Assembly (NCBI GenBank): GCA_021783355.1
Contig: JAJXTZ010000009.1
Location: 1 to 33,168, forward strand
Direction: 5' to 3'
Origin: a bacterium
GTDB taxonomy: Bacteria > Elusimicrobiota > Elusimicrobia > UBA1565 > UBA9628
DNA length: 33,168 nucleotides
Shown: piece after piece, positions 6,884 through 15,965 of the stretch
How positions within the stretch are numbered: position 1 is the first letter of the stretch
Layout: every line of letters begins with the position of its first letter
Notes under the pieces: model-generated
Seen by the model: only the letters and a program-made list of their open reading frames with translations
The model's database searches: none
What the model was told of the DNA's origin: nothing
Made by a program: the position numbers and the translations under genes

Positions 6884-6891
<8 letters not shown>

Positions 6892-8014
6892 GCCCGCTTA
6901 CGGCGTGCTGGCCCTCTTCCCGAGCGCCGACGCCCTGCTGAAGGCGATCCCGAAGGTGAAGGCCAGGGGCTACGCGCAGCTCGAGGCGTACACCCCGTAC
7001 CCGGTGCACGGGCTCGACGCGGCGCTGGGACTGCCGGAGTCGAAGCTCGGGGTCTTGGTCTTCTTGATGGCCGCCTTCGGCGCCGTCGGCGTGTTCGCCT
7101 TCGAATGGTGGGCGAACGCCGTCAACTATCCGCTGCTGACGGGCGGCAAGAACGCATTCACCTGGCCGGCCTGGATCCCGCCCACGCTGGAGGGCTCGAT
7201 CTTCCTCGGGACGTTCACGGCCGCGCTCGCGATGCTCTTCATCTTCAACGGACTGCCGTTCTTCGGACATCCGCTCCTGCAGACGAAGACGATTGACGAG
7301 ATCACGCGCGACCGATTCGCCCTGCTGATCGTCCCGTCGGGCGCCGCGTTCGACGAAGCGGACGCCGCGGCGGCACTGCGGGCGGCGGGCGGCGCGGCGG
7401 TCGAGACCCTGCCCGCGCCGAGCCACGAGACGCCGGACGCCGCATGGTGGACGCGGACCGCGCTGGCGATCGCGGCGGCGTGCGCCGTCGCGGGCGGCGC
7501 GACGGCCTTCGCGATCCGGGTCTTCCCGACGGTGAAGCCGATGGTCAACATGGAGGTCCAGCCGCGGCTCGACGCCCAGGAGCCGGACTCGTTCTTCGCG
7601 AACGGGCGCGGGATGCGCCTGCCTCCGGCGGGGACCGTGCCCCGCGGCGGAACGCCGATCCTCGCCGCGAGCCTCGATGCGGCCGGCCGCGAGCTGATCG
7701 ACCCGCTCCCGGTCACCGAGTTCGTGCTCGAGCGCGGGCGGCGCCAGTTCGACCGGCACTGCGCGGTCTGCCACGACCGCCTCGGCACGGGGCGGGCGAG
7801 TCTGAGCTCCGTCTACACGGCCAAGCCCGCCGACCTGCAGTCGTCGACGATGCGCAAGATCGCCGACGGTTCGCTGTACTGGGTGATCTCTCAGGGCTAC
7901 AACACGATGCCCGCCTACGCGGCGGACGTCTCGCCGGACGACCGCTGGGCGATCGTCCGCTACATCAGGGCGCTCCAGCGATCGCAGGACGCGCCGGAGA
8001 GGGACTTGAAATGA
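6884..8014 (+). CDS. actDE: fused alternative complex III subunits D and E (DUF3341 membrane domain plus monohaem cytochrome c)
   Basis: A 376-residue protein joining two subunits that are often separate. Residues 1-170 match ActD: a cytoplasmic start (YGVLALFPSADALLKAI, YTPYPVHGLD) and two membrane helices near 55-77 and 105-125, with the FEWWANAVNYPL and GGKNAFTWPAWIPPTLEGSIF stretches between them. A third helix near 190-212 leads into a periplasmic ActE-like domain. That domain has one haem motif CAVCH at about residue 292 and a likely distal methionine in YNTMPAYA near 342. With three membrane passes, the cytochrome ends up in the periplasm, as needed. No lipobox is needed because the domain is anchored by fusion. 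It overlaps actC by 8 bp and actF by 4 bp. Confidence 0.93.
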
Positions 8015-9168
8015 GCGCGGCGACGACGAATCATCGGGGGCGAGCCCTGCTGGCCGCGGCGGCGGTCGGAGCGGCCGGCATGGCGGCCACCTACTTCCTG
8101 GACGGCGCGGCGCGCTTCTGGGCCAACTGGCTGCTGTGGTTCGTCATCCTGGCCTGCCTGGCCCTCGGGACGCTCTTCCTCGTGGCCCTTCAGCACATCA
8201 CGGGCTCGCTCTGGAGCGTGCCGATGCGGCGCGTCCCGGAGCGGATCGCCGCGCTGACGCCGTGGCTCGTGCCGGTCGCGGCGGTCGCGCTGTTCTCGGT
8301 GCCCGCCGTCTTCTCGTGGACGCAGCCGGGGGCCGACGCGGTCACGCCGCTCGTCCTGAAGTCGGCCTGGCTCAACTACCCGTTCTTCATTCTGCGCCTG
8401 GCGGCGTGCCTGGCGCTGTGGATGCTCTCCTATCACCTGCTGGTCCGGCGCTCGCTGCGCCAGGACGAGTCGAAGGACCCGCGCGTCACGGTCTCGCTCC
8501 GGCGCTTCGCGCCGGCGTTCATGATCATCCTGGCCTTGACGATCACGGTCTTCGCCTTCGACTGGGTCTCCAGTCTCGAGGCGGCGTGGTACAGCGACAT
8601 GTTCGGCGTCTATTTGTTCGCTGGCGCGGTGACGACCGCGATCGCGGCGACGACGCTTGGCGTCATCTACCAGCGGCGCCGCGGGCGCCTGCCGGGCGTG
8701 ACCGAAGACCACCTGTACAACCTCGGCGGCTTGATGTTCGGCTTCACGATCTTCTGGAGCTACATCGCGTTCTCGCAGTACATGCTGCAATGGTACGCGA
8801 ACCTGCCGGAGGAGGTCTTCTGGTTCCAACAGCGGACCTCGGGGAAGATGGAGGGCGTCTTCGTCCTGCTGATGGCCGGGCACTTCTTCGTGCCGTTCCT
8901 GGGACTGATGATGAGGAGCGACAAGAAGGATTGGCGGCGCCTGCGCTGGATCTCGATCTGGGTCCTGTTCATGGAGTTCGTCGACGTCTTCTGGCTGATC
9001 TCCCCGATCGCCGGCAAGGGCCTGAACCTGGGCTGGCCGGAGGCCGCGTTCGCGCTCTTCTTCCTCTCGGCGGGCCTGCTGGTGGTGTCGCGCGCGATGA
9101 GCCGGGGTCCGGACATGCCCGTCGGCGACCCGTTCCTTGAGGACGGGCTCAAATTCCATCTCCGATGA
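8011..9168 (+). CDS. actF: alternative complex III subunit F, integral membrane protein
   Basis: A 385-residue membrane protein with about ten predicted helices, related to ActC but lacking a complete quinol site in characterised complexes. Typical stretches are FSWTQPGADAVTPLVLKSAW, FDWVSSLEAAWYSDMFGVYL, FWSYIAFSQYMLQWYANLPE and GHFFVPFLGLMMRS. The ATG at 8011 overlaps the preceding stop as ATGA, and the gene's own stop overlaps the next ATG the same way, so translation is probably coupled along the operon. It completes the A-B-C-DE-F set of alternative complex III. Confidence 0.94.
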   Translation: MSAATTNHRGRALLAAAAVGAAGMAATYFLDGAARFWANWLLWFVILACLALGTLFLVALQHITGSLWSVPMRRVPERIAALTPWLVPVAAVALFSVPAVFSWTQPGADAVTPLVLKSAWLNYPFFILRLAACLALWMLSYHLLVRRSLRQDESKDPRVTVSLRRFAPAFMIILALTITVFAFDWVSSLEAAWYSDMFGVYLFAGAVTTAIAATTLGVIYQRRRGRLPGVTEDHLYNLGGLMFGFTIFWSYIAFSQYMLQWYANLPEEVFWFQQRTSGKMEGVFVLLMAGHFFVPFLGLMMRSDKKDWRRLRWISIWVLFMEFVDVFWLISPIAGKGLNLGWPEAAFALFFLSAGLLVVSRAMSRGPDMPVGDPFLEDGLKFHLR

Positions 9169-10067
9169 GAGACAAGATGACGTCGCAAGAGTCCAAGATC
9201 CTCGCCGCGTCCGGGGGCGCCCTCGCGGCTGTCGTCCTGGTCGGCGCCGTCGGGGCGCTGTTCATGCGCGGGCCCGGGGCCTACGGCCCGACCTACCGGC
9301 AGGCGACCGCGGGCGCGCCCGCGGACCCCACCGTCTTCGAGAGCGTCCGCGGGAAGATGGAGAGCTCGGGCGGCGCTGCCGCGCTGTTGGCCGTCACGCC
9401 GCAGGCGCTGGCGCGCGGGAAGTCGCTCTACGCCGACTCCTGCGCCGGCTGCCACGGCGACGACGGCAACGCGAAGACCCCCGTCGCGGCCGTCATGAGC
9501 CCGCCGCCCCGCGACTTCACGAGTCCCCGCGGCTGGACGCGCGGCTACACGCTCGCCGAGACCTACCGGACGCTCACCGAGGGCGTCGCCGGCACGGGCA
9601 TGGCGGCGTTCGACACGCTGTCTCCCGCGGACCGCTTCGCGCTGGCTCACTACGTCCAGTCCTTCGGCAAGTTCGATCACAAGGACGACCTGGCCGCCGA
9701 AGCGAAGCTCCTCGACGCGAAGTATCATCTGGCCAAGATGGTCCGCGGCCCCAACAAGGTCTCGGTCCCCGTCGCCATGGCGCACATGGCGGCCGAGTAT
9801 GCGGCGCCGCGCGCGGTCGTCCTGCCGCTCGCCTCCGACCGGAGCCCCGGCGCCCGTTTGTGCCGGCGGCTGGTCTCGGACCCGGTCCGCGCCGCGACGA
9901 TCCTGTCCCAACTCCCGGGCTGGCGGGAGAAGCTGGACGTCTTCGCGGCGGCCGTCCTGGAGGGCGCGCCGGCCAACGGCTTCCGGCCTGCCGCGGCCCT
10001 GCTGACGCGCGCGCAGTGGCGCGCCTTTCACGCCGAGCTCGTCGCCCGCGCGCCCGCGCGGCGCTGA
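9165..10067 (+). CDS. membrane-anchored monohaem cytochrome c with a C-terminal extension
   Basis: A 300-residue protein with an N-terminal hydrophobic anchor (about residues 12-33) and a cytochrome c domain. The haem motif CAGCH is at residue 93, and a likely distal methionine in GTGMAAFD is at 146. Residues from about 165 to the end form a separate Ala/Leu-rich helical region with no haem motif that I do not recognise. The start overlaps actF by 4 bp, so it belongs to the complex III operon. It may carry electrons from the complex to an oxidase encoded elsewhere. A weak 7-bp inverted repeat (10071-10077 with 10092-10098) lies after the stop, in the short gap before the convergent gene. Confidence 0.88.
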   Translation: MRDKMTSQESKILAASGGALAAVVLVGAVGALFMRGPGAYGPTYRQATAGAPADPTVFESVRGKMESSGGAAALLAVTPQALARGKSLYADSCAGCHGDDGNAKTPVAAVMSPPPRDFTSPRGWTRGYTLAETYRTLTEGVAGTGMAAFDTLSPADRFALAHYVQSFGKFDHKDDLAAEAKLLDAKYHLAKMVRGPNKVSVPVAMAHMAAEYAAPRAVVLPLASDRSPGARLCRRLVSDPVRAATILSQLPGWREKLDVFAAAVLEGAPANGFRPAAALLTRAQWRAFHAELVARAPARR

Positions 10068-10104: not shown

Positions 10105-11361
10105 TCAGCGCAGGCGCAGGTCGCCTTCGCCGAGGCCTCCGGTCAGCAGCTGCGGCGACTGCTTGCGGCCCGCGCGGCGCGCGTCCTCTTGGACCGCGCG
10201 CCGCGCGTAGCCGTAGAGGCCCTTCAGGGTGACGGCGCCGTCCGGGGCGGCGGCCGCGCCGTTGAGCCCTTCCAGGACGGCTTCGGTCAGGGCGCCGTGC
10301 TTGCGGGCGTCCAGGACCCCGTCCTCGTCGCCGGCCGAGACGGCCAGCAGGGCCGCCGCGCGGCCCAGGGCGCTCGCGGCGGGGTCCAGCGCGGGCACCG
10401 GCGCCTTCACGCCGGGAGCGGCGGCGGTGCGCGCGCCCGCGCCGGAGAAGCCCGCGTCGATGACGGCGACCGCGGCGCGCGCCTTCAGGCCGTCCAGGGC
10501 CTTGTACAGGCGGGAGAGGGGGTAGCCGGTCACCTCCAGTTGAGCCGGGTCGCCGTCCCAGGGCAGCAGGTAGGCGGCCCCGGTCTTGGGGTCGGCGGCC
10601 CCGTCGCCGGCGAAATAGAAGAACACCCGGGAGTTCTCGTCTGCGTTATTGGGCAGCCAGAGCTCCAGGTATCGTTCCAGCCCCGCGCGGCCGGCCTGGC
10701 GGCCGGTCAGCACGAGGACGTTGCGCCGCGGCCAGCCGAGCGCGACCAGATGGCGGCGCACCGCCGCGGCGTCGTTCTCGGCGAAGGCGGCAGGGGGGGC
10801 GTCCCTGTAGTCCTGGATGCCGACGACCAGCGCGAAGTCGTCCGGATGGGCGCCGACCGAGTAGGAGGGGAGGTCCGCGCCGGCGGCGGGCGCCGCGCCC
10901 GCGGTGAGACCCTCGCTCTTGGCCTTGGCGGCGGCCTCCTGGCGCAGGGCGGCGTCCTTGAGGCGGGAGACGATTCCGTCATGGAAGGGGCCGCGGGCCC
11001 GGAGCTCGTCGCGGTGAGTCGCCTCGGCCCCGCGGGCGAGGAGGATCTCGACGAGGCTGAGGTCGCCCTCGATGGCGGCCAGGCTCAGCGCGCTGGTGCC
11101 GTTGCGGCGGGCGTTCACGTCGGCGCCGCGGTCGAGCAGGAGCGTGACCAGGGCGTTGCGGTGGTAGCGGACCGCCAGGGTGAGGGGGGTGAGGCTCGCG
11201 GAGCCGTAGGTCCCGTTGAGGTCGGCGCCGCCGTCGAGCAGAGCGGTCACCTTCGCGGCGTCTCCGGAGCGGATGGCCTTCTCCATCGGGGACGCGGCGC
11301 GGGCCGGACGGCCGAGAAGGACGACGAGCGCGAGCGCCGCGCCGAGCGTGCGAGTGTTCAT
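10105..11361 (-). CDS. secreted ankyrin-repeat protein with a catalytically dead caspase-like (peptidase C14) domain
   Basis: A 418-residue protein. A signal peptide (MNTRTLGAALALVVLLGRPA) is followed by three or so ankyrin repeats (about residues 24-115, for example LTPLTLAVRYHRNALVTLLL and TSALSLAAIEGDLSLVEILL). A linker and a caspase/metacaspase fold (about 173-400) complete it. The fold is clear from ALVVGIQDYRD, FAENDAAAVRRHL, FFYFAGDGA and AVIDAGFSGAGA. The catalytic His (usually YFAGHG) is Asp253 and the catalytic Cys (usually DACFSG) is Gly304. The codons GAC and GGC are unambiguous, so proteolysis is not expected. A longer in-frame start at 11418 exists, but 11361 gives the signal peptide and has GGAGGAG 11 nt upstream. 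A TAGAAT -10 lies at 11387-11392 (minus). It may be a binding or scaffold protein of the envelope. Confidence 0.85.
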   Translation of the reverse strand: MNTRTLGAALALVVLLGRPARAASPMEKAIRSGDAAKVTALLDGGADLNGTYGSASLTPLTLAVRYHRNALVTLLLDRGADVNARRNGTSALSLAAIEGDLSLVEILLARGAEATHRDELRARGPFHDGIVSRLKDAALRQEAAAKAKSEGLTAGAAPAAGADLPSYSVGAHPDDFALVVGIQDYRDAPPAAFAENDAAAVRRHLVALGWPRRNVLVLTGRQAGRAGLERYLELWLPNNADENSRVFFYFAGDGAADPKTGAAYLLPWDGDPAQLEVTGYPLSRLYKALDGLKARAAVAVIDAGFSGAGARTAAAPGVKAPVPALDPAASALGRAAALLAVSAGDEDGVLDARKHGALTEAVLEGLNGAAAAPDGAVTLKGLYGYARRAVQEDARRAGRKQSPQLLTGGLGEGDLRLR

Positions 11362-11456: not shown

Positions 11457-11476
11457 ATGACTGACCAATCAGTCAT
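11457..11476 (+). promoter_or_regulatory. perfect 8-4-8 palindrome, probable TetR-family operator
   Basis: ATGACTGACCAATCAGTCAT is a perfect inverted repeat of 8-bp arms around CCAA. TGACTGA/TCAGTCA palindromes of this size are typical of operators bound by TetR-family repressors of efflux pumps. It begins right after the -10 box and ends 2 nt before the ATG of the TolC gene, so it overlaps the predicted transcript start. No regulator gene is present in the window, so the repressor would act from elsewhere. Confidence 0.65.
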
Positions 11477-11478
11477 TT

Positions 11479-12795
11479 ATGCATCCCCGCCACCCTCTCC
11501 TGCGATTCGTCCGGTCCTGGGCCGTGCTGGCGGCGCTCGCGCTGCCCGCGGCCGCGTCCGCCGCCGCGGTCCCCGCCGTCTCCACCGCTTCCGACGCCGG
11601 CCGGGCGATCACGCTGGACCAGGCCTACGCCGCGGCGCTCGCCCGCAGCGAGACGGTCGCCGAAAAGGGCGAGACCTACGCGCAGCTGCGGGCCCAGATC
11701 GACGAGCTGTGGTCCGCCGTCCAGCCGCGGCTGGAGCTGCGCGGCAGCCAGGAGTGGCAGGACGCCGGAGGCGGCGGGGGGGGCTTCCCGATCCCGACCA
11801 GCCAGCCCACCGCGGCCTTGAACGCGCACCAGCCGCTCTTCTCCGGCCTGCGCGAGTACCTGGCGGTGCGCGCCGGGCGCGAGGAGAGCGCGTCGGCCGA
11901 ACTGGCGCTGGCCCGGGCCAAGCAGCTCCTCTATCAGGACGTCGCGCAGGCGTACCTGAACCTGCTCGGCAGCCACCAGGACTTGAGGGTGCGCCGCGCC
12001 CAGGTCAAGCTGACCGGGGACCGCGTCAAGGAGCTGGAGGGCTTCGTGCGCATCGGCCGTTCGCGGACGAGCGAGGTCCTCGCCGCCCGATCCCAGCTGG
12101 CGCAGAACGAGGCGGACCTGGCCACCGCGCGGGGGCAGGAGCGCGTCTATCAGGAGACGCTCCAGTTCCTGACCGGTCTCGACCAGGACCTGCTTCCGTC
12201 GGAGGTCCCGCCGCCCGGGCCGGCCGACGAGTCCTCCTACCTCGCCCGCGCGGGCTCGCGCCCCGACGTGGAAGCCGCGCGCCGCGACCTCAACTACGCG
12301 GGCCTCTACGAGAGCATGCAGTCCCGCCAGCGCTGGCCGACGATCGGCCTGGACGGCAACTACTACCTGAAGCGCCCGGACAACGTCTACAAGCACGTGC
12401 GCTGGGACGTGACGCTCTCCGGGACCCTGCCGATCTACTACGGCGGGGAGATTTCCGCGCAGGTGCGGCAGGCCGAGGCCCAGAAGCGCTCGAAGGCCCT
12501 GGCGTTGTCCCTGGCGCGGCGGCAGGCGGCTCTGGACGTGCGCTCCGCCTACAGCGACCTCTCGTCCGACCTTGACATCGTCGCGGCCCTGGAGAACGCC
12601 AAGTCCCTGGCCGAGGCCAACGCCGCGGCCCAGGAGCAGGATTACCGGTACGGCCTGGTGACGAACCTGGACGTGCTGGCCAGCCTGACGACCGTGCAGG
12701 ACACGAACCTGCGCCTCGACCAGGCCCGGAACGCGGCGTATTTCGCCCGCGTCCGGCTGGAAGTGGCCGCCGGCGGCCCGGAAAGCGCGCGATGA
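11479..12795 (+). CDS. TolC-family outer-membrane efflux channel
   Basis: A 438-residue outer-membrane efflux protein with a signal peptide (residues 1-30, ending AAASAAAVPA). It has the two related halves of coiled coil and strand typical of TolC/OEP proteins. Landmarks are ITLDQAYAAALARSETVAE, the proline-rich turn before ALNAHQPLFSGLREYLAVRA, YLNLLGSHQDLRVRRAQVKL, VTLSGTLPIYYGGEISAQVR and YRYGLVTNLDVLASLTTVQD. It forms a trimeric trans-periplasmic duct for efflux. No Shine-Dalgarno is visible; the start lies just after the palindromic operator. The end overlaps the RND pump gene by 4 bp (ATGA), so the two are co-translated. Confidence 0.92.
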   Translation: MHPRHPLLRFVRSWAVLAALALPAAASAAAVPAVSTASDAGRAITLDQAYAAALARSETVAEKGETYAQLRAQIDELWSAVQPRLELRGSQEWQDAGGGGGGFPIPTSQPTAALNAHQPLFSGLREYLAVRAGREESASAELALARAKQLLYQDVAQAYLNLLGSHQDLRVRRAQVKLTGDRVKELEGFVRIGRSRTSEVLAARSQLAQNEADLATARGQERVYQETLQFLTGLDQDLLPSEVPPPGPADESSYLARAGSRPDVEAARRDLNYAGLYESMQSRQRWPTIGLDGNYYLKRPDNVYKHVRWDVTLSGTLPIYYGGEISAQVRQAEAQKRSKALALSLARRQAALDVRSAYSDLSSDLDIVAALENAKSLAEANAAAQEQDYRYGLVTNLDVLASLTTVQDTNLRLDQARNAAYFARVRLEVAAGGPESAR

Positions 12796-15700
12796 CCCTG
12801 TCCGACCTGTCGATCCGCAACCCCGTCTTCGCCTGGATGCTGATGATCGGCCTGATGGTCTTCGGCTGGATCGGCTTCCACCGCATGGGCGTCAGCCAGC
12901 TGCCCGACGTGGACTTCCCGGTGGTGACGGTGACGATCAACTGGGAGAACGCCTCGCCGGACATCATGGAGACCGAGGTCGCCGACGTGGTCGAGGACTC
13001 CGTGATGAGCGTGGAGGGCATCAAGGACATCTCGTCGACCTCCCGCCTGGGCCAGACCACGATCACCATCGAGTTCAACCTCAGCCGCAACATCGACGCG
13101 GCGGTCGAGGACGTGCAGAGCCACATCTCCCAGGCCCAGAAGGACCTGCCCAAGGACATCGACGCGCCGATCATCCAGAAGGTCAACCCCGAGGACCAGC
13201 CGATCATGTGGCTCTCCCTGCGGGCGGCCCCCGGCTCGAACACCAGCCTGCTCGACATCTGCCGCTACATCAACGAGCACCTGAAGGACCGGCTGGCGAT
13301 GACGCCGGGCGTCGGGGACATCCGCCTCGGCGGCTACGTGGACCCGAACCTGCGCGTGTGGCTGGACGCCGAAAAGATGGCCAAGCGCGAGATCACCGTG
13401 GAGGACGTGCTGGGCGCCATCGACAGCCAGCACGCCGACGTGCCCGCCGGCTGGCTGGACTCCGGCGCCAAGGAGTACAACGTCCGCGTCTACGGCGAGG
13501 CCACGACGCCCGAGCAGTTCGCCAACCTGCTGATCCCCACGCGCGTGCGCGGCGGCCAGATCTACCGCAAGATCCGCTTCGGGGACGTCGGGACCGTGGA
13601 GGACGGGCTCGACGACATCCGGCGCATCTCCCGCTTCCAGGGCGAGCGCGCCGTGGGCATGGGCATCGTCAAGCAGCGCGGCACCAACGCGGTGGCCGTC
13701 GCCGACGCGGTCCAGAAGGAGATCGCGGCGATCCGGCCGATGCTTCCCAAGGGCATGGACCTGCAGGTCGTCTTCGACTCCACCCGCTTCATCAAGAACT
13801 CCGTCAGCGAGCTGGAAAGCCAGCTGATCCGCTCGGCGGTGCTGACCTCCCTGGTCTGCCTGCTCTTCCTGGGCTCCTGGACGGCGACCATCAACGTCCT
13901 GCTCGCGATCCCGACGGCGATCCTGGGGACCTTCATCGTCCTCTACTTCTGCGGGTTCACGATCAACAGCTTCACGATGCTGGGGCTGTCGCTCGTCATC
14001 GGCATCATCGTCGACGACGCGATCATGGTGCTGGAGAACATCGCCCGCTACCGGGAGCAGGGCCTGACCAAGGTCAAGGCGGCGCTGGTCGGCGCGCGGG
14101 AGATCACCTCCGCCGCGATGGCCGCCTCGCTGGCCATCCTGGCCATCTTCCTGCCGGTCGTGTTCATGGACGGCATCGTGGGCAAGTTCTTCTTCCAGTT
14201 CGGCGTGACGATCTCGGTGGCGGTCATGGTCTCGCTGATCGAGGCGCTGACGATCGCGCCGATGCGCTGCTCGCAGTTCCTGGAGGTCGGCGCGACCAAC
14301 GCGGTCAGCCGCGGGATGGACCGCCTGATGGACTCCGCGCGCGCCGGCTACCGGCGCCTGCTGGATTCGGCCCTCCGGGTCCCCAAGACGATCCTGGCGG
14401 TCTCGCTGGCGGTGTTCGTCTCCTCGCTGTTCCTGATCAAGGGTCTCAAGAAGGAGTTCATCCCGTCCCAGGACCAGGGGCTGTTCCTGGTCAACATCAC
14501 CCTGCCGCTGGGCGTCTCCCTGGACCACACCGACCAGGTCTTCAAGACCGAACTGGAGCCGTGGATGCTCAAGCGCCCCGAGCTGGCGCACTACTACTGC
14601 GCCATAGGCGGGTTCCAGGGCGGGCAGGTCAACACCGGCCTCTTCTTCGTCACGATGAAGGACCTCAAGGACCGGCCGATGTACCACGGCCATCGCGAGA
14701 CGCAGGCCGACTTCATGCAGATCGTGCGCCGGAAGTTCAGCGCGGCGCCCGGCGTCGAGCGCGCGGCGATCATGGACATGTCGCAGGCGGGCTTCTCGTC
14801 CCATCGCGGCTATCCGATCGAGTTCATGGTGCAGGGCCCGGACTGGAGCAAGCTGGCCGAGGTGGCCGACGCCTTCCGCGACAAGATGAAGGCCACGGGC
14901 CTGATGACCGACGTGGACACCGACTACAACCCCGGCATGCCCGAGATCCAGGTCCGCCCGAACCGCGCGGCGGCGGCGCGATACGGCATCACCGCGCGCG
15001 CCATCGGCGACACCATCAACGCGATGATCGGCGGCGTCAAGTACGGCAAGTTCACGGGGCGCGGCAAGCGCTACGACGTGCGCGTGCGCCTGGTGGACAA
15101 GGACCGCAACAGCCCCAAGGACCTCAGCAAGATCTGGGTGCGCGACAACTTCGGCAACGTGGTGCGCCTGCCGGAGGTCATCACGCAGACCATCAAGCCG
15201 TCCCTGTTCGCGATCACGCGCTACAACCGCGAACGCTCGATCACGGTCTTCGCCAACCCCGCGCCCGGCAAGTCCCAGGGCGAGGCGCTCGCGGCCGTGC
15301 AGGCGATGTCCAAGTCCCTGCTGCCCGAGGGCTATCACATCGTGATGTCGGGCAACTCCCAGCTGATGAAGGAGTCGTCGCGCAGCCTGCTCTTCGTGAT
15401 GCTGCTGGGGGTCTTCGTCGCCTACATGGTGCTGGCGACGCAGTACAACAGCTTCATCGACCCGGTCACCGTCCTGATGGCCCTGCCCTTCAGCGTGACC
15501 GGCGCCCTGGCCGCGCTCCGCCTCACGCACCAGAGCCTGAACATGTACAGCATGATCGGCATGATCCTGCTGATGGGCATCGTGAAGAAGAACTCGATCC
15601 TGCTCGTGGACTTTACCAACGAGCGGCGCCGGCACGGCCTGGGCGTGCGCGCGGCCCTGCTGGAGGCCTGCCCGATCCGCCTGCGCCCGATCCTGATGAC

Positions 15701-15965
15701 CACGGCGGCCACCATCGCCGGCGCGCTGCCCGAGGCTCTGGCCCGCGGCGCGGGCGCCGAGCTGATGGTCCCGATGGCGGTGACCATCATCGGCGGCCTC
15801 CTGGTCTCCACGATTCTGACCCTGCTGGTGGTGCCGTGCTTCTACCAGGTGATGAGCGCTTTCGAGAACCGCCGCTCGGACGAGGAGCTCAAGGAAGCCC
15901 TGCGCGAGCTGGGCGAGCTGCCGCCGGAGACCGCGTCAGCTCCGGTCATCGTCACCGCCGACTAG
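12792..15965 (+). CDS. RND-family (HAE1-type) proton-driven efflux pump
   Basis: A 1057-residue inner-membrane transporter, the normal size for the AcrB/MexB type, with 12 predicted helices and two large periplasmic loops. It starts with the family's LSIRNPVFAWMLMIGLMVFG and VSQLPDVDFPVV. The proton-relay aspartates are present in GIIVDDAIMVLEN (residues 408-409), as is the relay lysine in GIVKKNSILLVDF (residues 932-933). The residues needed for proton-coupled export are therefore intact. Substrates cannot be told from sequence. The gene follows TolC directly, but there is no HlyD/AcrA-type periplasmic adaptor gene on either side, which is unusual for an RND operon. Confidence 0.94.
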   Translation: MTLSDLSIRNPVFAWMLMIGLMVFGWIGFHRMGVSQLPDVDFPVVTVTINWENASPDIMETEVADVVEDSVMSVEGIKDISSTSRLGQTTITIEFNLSRNIDAAVEDVQSHISQAQKDLPKDIDAPIIQKVNPEDQPIMWLSLRAAPGSNTSLLDICRYINEHLKDRLAMTPGVGDIRLGGYVDPNLRVWLDAEKMAKREITVEDVLGAIDSQHADVPAGWLDSGAKEYNVRVYGEATTPEQFANLLIPTRVRGGQIYRKIRFGDVGTVEDGLDDIRRISRFQGERAVGMGIVKQRGTNAVAVADAVQKEIAAIRPMLPKGMDLQVVFDSTRFIKNSVSELESQLIRSAVLTSLVCLLFLGSWTATINVLLAIPTAILGTFIVLYFCGFTINSFTMLGLSLVIGIIVDDAIMVLENIARYREQGLTKVKAALVGAREITSAAMAASLAILAIFLPVVFMDGIVGKFFFQFGVTISVAVMVSLIEALTIAPMRCSQFLEVGATNAVSRGMDRLMDSARAGYRRLLDSALRVPKTILAVSLAVFVSSLFLIKGLKKEFIPSQDQGLFLVNITLPLGVSLDHTDQVFKTELEPWMLKRPELAHYYCAIGGFQGGQVNTGLFFVTMKDLKDRPMYHGHRETQADFMQIVRRKFSAAPGVERAAIMDMSQAGFSSHRGYPIEFMVQGPDWSKLAEVADAFRDKMKATGLMTDVDTDYNPGMPEIQVRPNRAAAARYGITARAIGDTINAMIGGVKYGKFTGRGKRYDVRVRLVDKDRNSPKDLSKIWVRDNFGNVVRLPEVITQTIKPSLFAITRYNRERSITVFANPAPGKSQGEALAAVQAMSKSLLPEGYHIVMSGNSQLMKESSRSLLFVMLLGVFVAYMVLATQYNSFIDPVTVLMALPFSVTGALAALRLTHQSLNMYSMIGMILLMGIVKKNSILLVDFTNERRRHGLGVRAALLEACPIRLRPILMTTAATIAGALPEALARGAGAELMVPMAVTIIGGLLVSTILTLLVVPCFYQVMSAFENRRSDEELKEALRELGELPPETASAPVIVTAD

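Follow-up and report, generated by a model that had tools for sequence, protein, structure and literature searches.

As summarized in Table 1, the window, by which we mean the whole stretch of 33,168 nucleotides analyzed, carries a gene whose product joins an export signal to about three ankyrin repeats followed by a caspase domain. The gene stands alone between an alternative complex III/cytochrome c cluster and a divergent pair of tolC and RND pump genes. An operon link was ruled out by the gene orientations, convergent with the cytochrome c gene and divergent from tolC. The pump gene directly follows tolC (11479–15965 for the pair), and no adaptor gene was noticed beside the two. A perfect palindrome, TGACTGACCAATCAGTCA, with no other exact copy in the genome, lies just before tolC at 11458–11475, and was found conserved, wholly or nearly so, ahead of tolC in G012, G015, G018, G005, and G007. 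Because it is kept beside tolC in relatives with no homologue of the pseudo-caspase (P0001) in that stretch, it was rejected as an operator of the pseudo-caspase gene; the palindrome thus belongs to tolC, and has the look of a TetR-type operator for the efflux genes.

Table 1. Positions of the pseudo-orthocaspase gene, its parts, and the neighboring genes in the window
Feature	Position	Strand	Basis or remark
ActD	6884–8014		
Cytochrome c	9165–10067		
Ankyrin-pseudo-orthocaspase gene	10105–11361	(-)	418 aa + stop
Caspase (Peptidase_C14) domain, residues 163–418	10108–10875	(-)	Pfam, model, Foldseek
Loop 313–322 past the Cys site	10396–10425	(-)	Alignment; VxxxGxRPLV in active paralogues, eroded in window protein and ortholog
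Gly304 replacing catalytic Cys	10450–10452	(-)	Alignment
Asp302, kept acidic position, S1 Asp211 by motif	10456–10458	(-)	Equivalence inferred from motif
Asp253 replacing catalytic His	10603–10605	(-)	Alignment
Asp197, kept acidic position, metacaspase S1 Asp95 by motif	10771–10773	(-)	Equivalence inferred from motif
Helical linker, residues 121–162	10876–11001	(-)	Model; 153–159 disordered
Ankyrin repeats, residues 29–118	11008–11277	(-)	Pfam Ank_2; model helices
Signal peptide, residues 1–22	11296–11361	(-)	By-eye reading; signal peptidase I-like site between ARA and A; lipoprotein signal LLGC in ortholog
Arg18 (CGT), at or beside the ortholog's lipobox Cys in the alignment	11308–11310	(-)	Sequence, alignment
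tolC	11479–12795		
RND pump gene	12792–15965		

Domain architecture and the replaced catalytic dyad

Pfam searches identified Ank_2 over residues 29–118 (E 1.5e-11, above the cut-off), in agreement with the ankyrin repeats claimed in the first-pass annotation, and Peptidase_C14 over residues 176–405 (E 9.8e-10; 38.9 bits versus a cut-off of 21.4). Orthocaspases are described as lacking a p10 domain; in the window protein, about 110 residues lie beyond the Cys site and match the tail of the Pfam C14 model. The best domain match in NCBIfam was to the EACC1-type caspases (NF047832; E 4.8e-17), falling below the cut-off (62.1 bits versus 140), and no EACC1 partner genes were seen. Searching the PDB by sequence, using only the caspase domain, revealed no relative (best E 1.2), so that comparison of folds was needed. 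The AlphaFold model, for which the window protein was supplied with 48 relatives, displayed a mean pLDDT of 90.7 and a pTM of 0.68. When submitted to Foldseek, its caspase part gave MALT1, the yeast metacaspase Yca1, and the Geobacter caspase homologue GSU0716 as the best folds (E 1e-9 to 9e-9), with T. brucei MCA2 also among the matches, and its ankyrin part matched DARPins. The caspase/metacaspase fold proposed earlier was thus borne out by Pfam, the model, and Foldseek. While sharing this fold with the Type I metacaspases and the MALT1 paracaspase, the window protein is only 15–17% identical to them and has no Ig or death domains and no catalytic residues.

The open reading frame, its coordinates, and the codons of Asp253 and Gly304 had all been given exactly in the first-pass annotation, and its claim that both catalytic residues are replaced was confirmed in the family alignment, in which the same two columns hold the His and Cys of the sampled paralogues in 50 of the 56 sequences. 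The other six were the window protein (Asp, Gly), its ortholog (Cys, Gly), G034:C11 and G027:C14 (both His, Gly), a remote protein on contig C208 of the window's own genome (Arg, Gly), and one fragment. There is no cysteine anywhere in the window protein, so that it cannot be a Cys–His protease, and the catalytic Cys does not lie at another position, an objection that had been raised beforehand. Meanwhile, the p20 domain is otherwise kept, as in pseudo-orthocaspases, and Asp197 and Asp302, equivalent by motif to Asp95 and Asp211 of the acidic S1 pocket of TbMCA2, are retained by the window protein and its ortholog alike.

Ancestry of the dyad loss and constraint on the fold

A single ortholog was found, in Elusimicrobia bacterium RBG_16_66_12 (G004; L031:9165–10397; 54% identity), in which the catalytic His is replaced by Cys (AGCG) and the catalytic Cys by Gly. 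A contig search of the genomes with the window protein alone found nothing, and one with the alignment of the two sequences recovered nothing beyond the ortholog already known and three remote relatives. The two proteins were reciprocal best matches (E 6e-118 versus 2e-79 for the next) and formed a clade with a support of 100/99, nested in a family with intact His and Cys; the shared Gly would therefore most simply have been present already in their common ancestor. The sharing of Asp and Gly by close relatives, a point raised in the first reading, thus held for the Gly but not for the Asp, His having been lost in both proteins to different residues.

Only two genomes carry this lineage, at different places. 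In the relative G012 (L098, G012:C341), the same interval lacks a caspase gene and contains the same cytochrome end, a tatA-like gene (read by eye), and, ahead of tolC, the same palindrome. The G004 ortholog lies in another gene setting. The window gene has thus moved or been replaced at this site, and so is mobile or dispensable.

The ratio of non-synonymous to synonymous change, which had been put forward as a check, was calculated over the caspase domain for the pair formed by the window protein and its ortholog. The resulting pN/pS of 0.61 (bootstrap 0.48–0.75) was below 1 and higher than the 0.21–0.46 obtained for five usable active pairs, two out-of-frame control pairs being left out, and all these values are ratios of proportions rather than rates because pS was near saturation (third-position G+C near 0.9). 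The dead pair thus appears constrained, yet more loosely than its active relatives. The earlier proposal that the protein retains the caspase fold and would have no proteolytic activity was supported. Both reading frames are intact though synonymous change is largely saturated, and the caspase part (59% identity, pN 0.27) showed stronger conservation than the ankyrin part (pN 0.37).

At the 71 columns conserved in the family, as defined on its active members, the window protein and its ortholog were identical in 59, versus 92 of 184 elsewhere. Twelve of these columns were lost in the window protein and 18 in the ortholog, and ten were altered in both (S251A, H253, P256A, V299A, C304G, V313A, R319K, P320, L321P, and F358L), versus 0–7 in twelve active sister pairs; beyond the dyad, the two proteins thus share eight changes at conserved positions. 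The losses in the window protein were concentrated in the His loop and residues 300–322 (9 of 21 conserved columns, versus 3 of 50 elsewhere; Fisher p 0.0005), and 10 of the 18 losses in the ortholog fell in the active-site loops (Fisher p 0.008), both p values being descriptive because these regions were picked after seeing the data. These substitution patterns point to a fold under selection, with catalysis abandoned and the acidic pocket probably kept.

Export signals and pseudo members in the Elusimicrobiota family

The window protein begins with MNTRTLGAALALVVLLGRPARA followed by Ala, in which Arg replaces the lipobox Cys (LLGR, versus LLGC in the ortholog) ahead of a signal peptidase I-like site read by eye, whereas the ortholog bears the lipoprotein signal MKNLRISAALALLAPLLGC followed by Ser. 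An export signal as claimed in the first-pass annotation is thus present in the sequence on a by-eye reading. With the lipobox Cys lost, the window protein should be released, and is probably soluble outside the cytoplasm, in the periplasm or secreted, unlike many of its relatives. Among the latter, at least 26 of 56 carried lipoprotein signals according to a strict lipobox script, which misses several visible cases such as L074 (LFSGC).

The intact motif D-x-C-F-S-G-A-G-x-R occurred 224 times in 56 genomes of the order, with up to 22 occurrences per genome. Elusimicrobiota have a large orthocaspase family whose members are exported and in many cases bear a lipobox (family-wide, e.g., L003–L030). 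A search of an open-access literature library found no description of it, although this is weak evidence of absence. Since ankyrin repeats were present in about 19 of 49 sampled members, many of them probably lipoproteins, the exported ankyrin-fused form is, contrary to the earlier suggestion, not unusual here: the ankyrin-caspase export architecture is one branch of this expanded family, which probably consists mostly of lipoproteins. What is unusual instead is the double dyad loss, in a two-sequence clade versus about 224 intact Cys motifs in 56 genomes, and the loss of the lipobox Cys.

Two pattern searches were directed at the altered sites. The Cys-site pattern, defined as another residue at Cys with a codon not starting with T, gave nine matches including four true homologues (window, G004, G027, and G034); the His-site pattern gave three, all true (window, G004, and the Tyr form G040:C22 with Cys kept). 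The matches in G013, G017, G006, G004:C118, G018, G043, and G063 were due to chance, showing no caspase homology by tblastn. These counts of pseudo members are lower bounds, because T-starting codons at the Cys site (e.g., Ser TCN) and C-starting codons at the His site are missed. As far as seen, double dyad loss was confined to the clade of the window protein and its ortholog and to the remote C208 protein.

The genome of the window itself encodes paralogues at C238 and C208 in which the Cys motif is intact, and directly after the intact C208 paralogue, with almost no gap, lies a very degenerate caspase-like protein with FAGRTAR, DAGTIGA, and a lipobox. In all, four other pseudo members, G000:C208 (R-G; L056:1354–4151), G027:C14 (H-G), G034:C11 (H-G), and G040:C22 (Y-C), directly adjoin an intact paralogue in the same direction. 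As any family neighbor within 2.5 kb was found for 32 of 191 members, an outcome of four out of four has an expected chance of about one in a thousand, in a comparison that was post hoc and made on incomplete lists. The pairing suggests frequent cooperation between dead and live members. On the 33-kb contig of the window no caspase neighbor was found, and the nearest caspase genes of the ortholog are about 14–15 kb away; for the window gene, the link to a partner thus comes by analogy only.

Candidate roles and relation to known systems

The best explanation, to which we give even chances, is that the window protein is a pseudo-orthocaspase of an exported, usually lipid-anchored family, dead and soluble, which binds without cutting and serves active lipoprotein caspases as a decoy or adaptor. 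The lost dyad, the lack of any cysteine, the predicted fold, purifying selection, and the intact-motif paralogues in the same genome are established; its localization, ligand binding, and regulatory role are what we infer. The nucleophilic Cys would have changed to Gly in the common ancestor, with His lost in both lines as different residues, and the window protein, upon losing the lipobox Cys, would have become soluble, either periplasmic or secreted. While the catalytic loops eroded, the fold was retained together with the acidic S1-pocket positions. The pocket may still hold Arg/Lys-type peptides and the ankyrin repeats a partner, and the protein could compete with, or regulate, the cell's own active lipoprotein caspases. 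The decoy or adaptor role is supported indirectly, in that four other pseudo members each adjoin an intact paralogue. We regard as speculative a wider exported network that would comprise numerous lipid-anchored orthocaspases, with dead members as dedicated partners, most of them beside an active neighbor, and the window lineage as a freely diffusing ankyrin decoy, a bacterial analogue of c-FLIP in its relation to caspase-8 but outside the cytoplasm.

The main rival to binding without cutting is slow decay, in which catalysis and the lipid anchor have been lost and the weakly constrained gene is heading to a pseudogene. The pN/pS above that of the active sister pairs, the 12 and 18 lost conserved columns, and the patchy presence would fit such a course, as would the ortholog caspase domain, which no longer reaches the Pfam threshold of E 0.001. 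We nevertheless consider decay unlikely, because both frames are intact after near-saturated synonymous change, pN/pS is clearly below 1, identity is concentrated at the family-conserved columns, derived residues are common to both proteins, and the structure model is of high confidence. Alternatively, the protein might be a plain exported ankyrin binder, the caspase fold serving as a structural platform with no link to caspase substrates or paralogues. The repeats retained in both orthologs and the lack of an adjoining caspase gene are in line with this; but the caspase part is better conserved than the ankyrin part, which argues that it is not a mere spacer, and the acidic pocket positions are kept, making this alternative doubtful as well.

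New catalytic chemistry through Asp253 or other residues of the old active site is very improbable: although Asp253 sits in the old His loop with the G-x-G frame kept, no candidate catalytic residue is conserved, the ortholog having Cys where the window protein has Asp, and the adjoining loops erode in both proteins. Scarcely conceivable is that both codons stem from errors of sequencing or assembly. The two are a single base from CAC and TGC, respectively, and the assembly is a draft of 260 contigs; yet in an independent genome Gly occupies the same site, His is lost too, and the eight further changes are shared, and the window protein contains no other cysteine. The dyad loss is thus not a matter of chance or assembly, and for Gly304 an error is refuted in practice.

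The window protein fits the description of the pseudo-orthocaspases, a known class (PMC6426788), in line with the comparison with known pseudo-enzymes made in the first-pass annotation. That class comprises 858 of 9,994 orthocaspases, 90% of those reported being from Alphaproteobacteria and Cyanobacteria, with mainly YS, YN, YA, and FS dyads, and its cyanobacterial members retain both S1 Asp residues corresponding to TbMCA2 (PMC6426788; Klemencic et al., 2019). The window protein likewise has a caspase p20 fold without the His–Cys dyad and with the acidic pocket Asp residues kept, and some pseudo-orthocaspase types are also fused to repeat scaffolds (Phe-Ser with TPR). In contrast to them, the window lineage has Asp-Gly and Cys-Gly dyads, N-terminal ankyrin repeats, and a lipoprotein-family export signal, and occurs in Elusimicrobiota. 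To our knowledge, no ligand is known for SyOC from Synechocystis PCC 6803, the one studied bacterial pseudo-orthocaspase. SyOC carries a Tyr-Gly dyad, with Gly in place of the Cys, and its deletion raises oxidative-stress tolerance (PMC7889975).

Dead orthocaspases as a class are thus already known; what is new is the lineage, dyad type, architecture, export, and phylum. The orthocaspase family proves to be expanded in a phylum listed without metacaspases in a 2012 survey (PMC3501461). A dead, doubly substituted member amid dozens of intact paralogues, together with the dead/intact tandems elsewhere, makes the idea that dead members regulate live ones directly testable. The intact Elusimicrobiota lipoprotein orthocaspases share the caspase domain and often the ankyrin part with the window protein (about 36–50% identity), differing in the presence of His and Cys and, in many of those inspected, of a lipobox. 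The same Cys-to-Gly replacement, engineered rather than natural, is found in laboratory metacaspase mutants (AtMC9 C147G; PDB 9n3d–9n3f), in which the fold survives.
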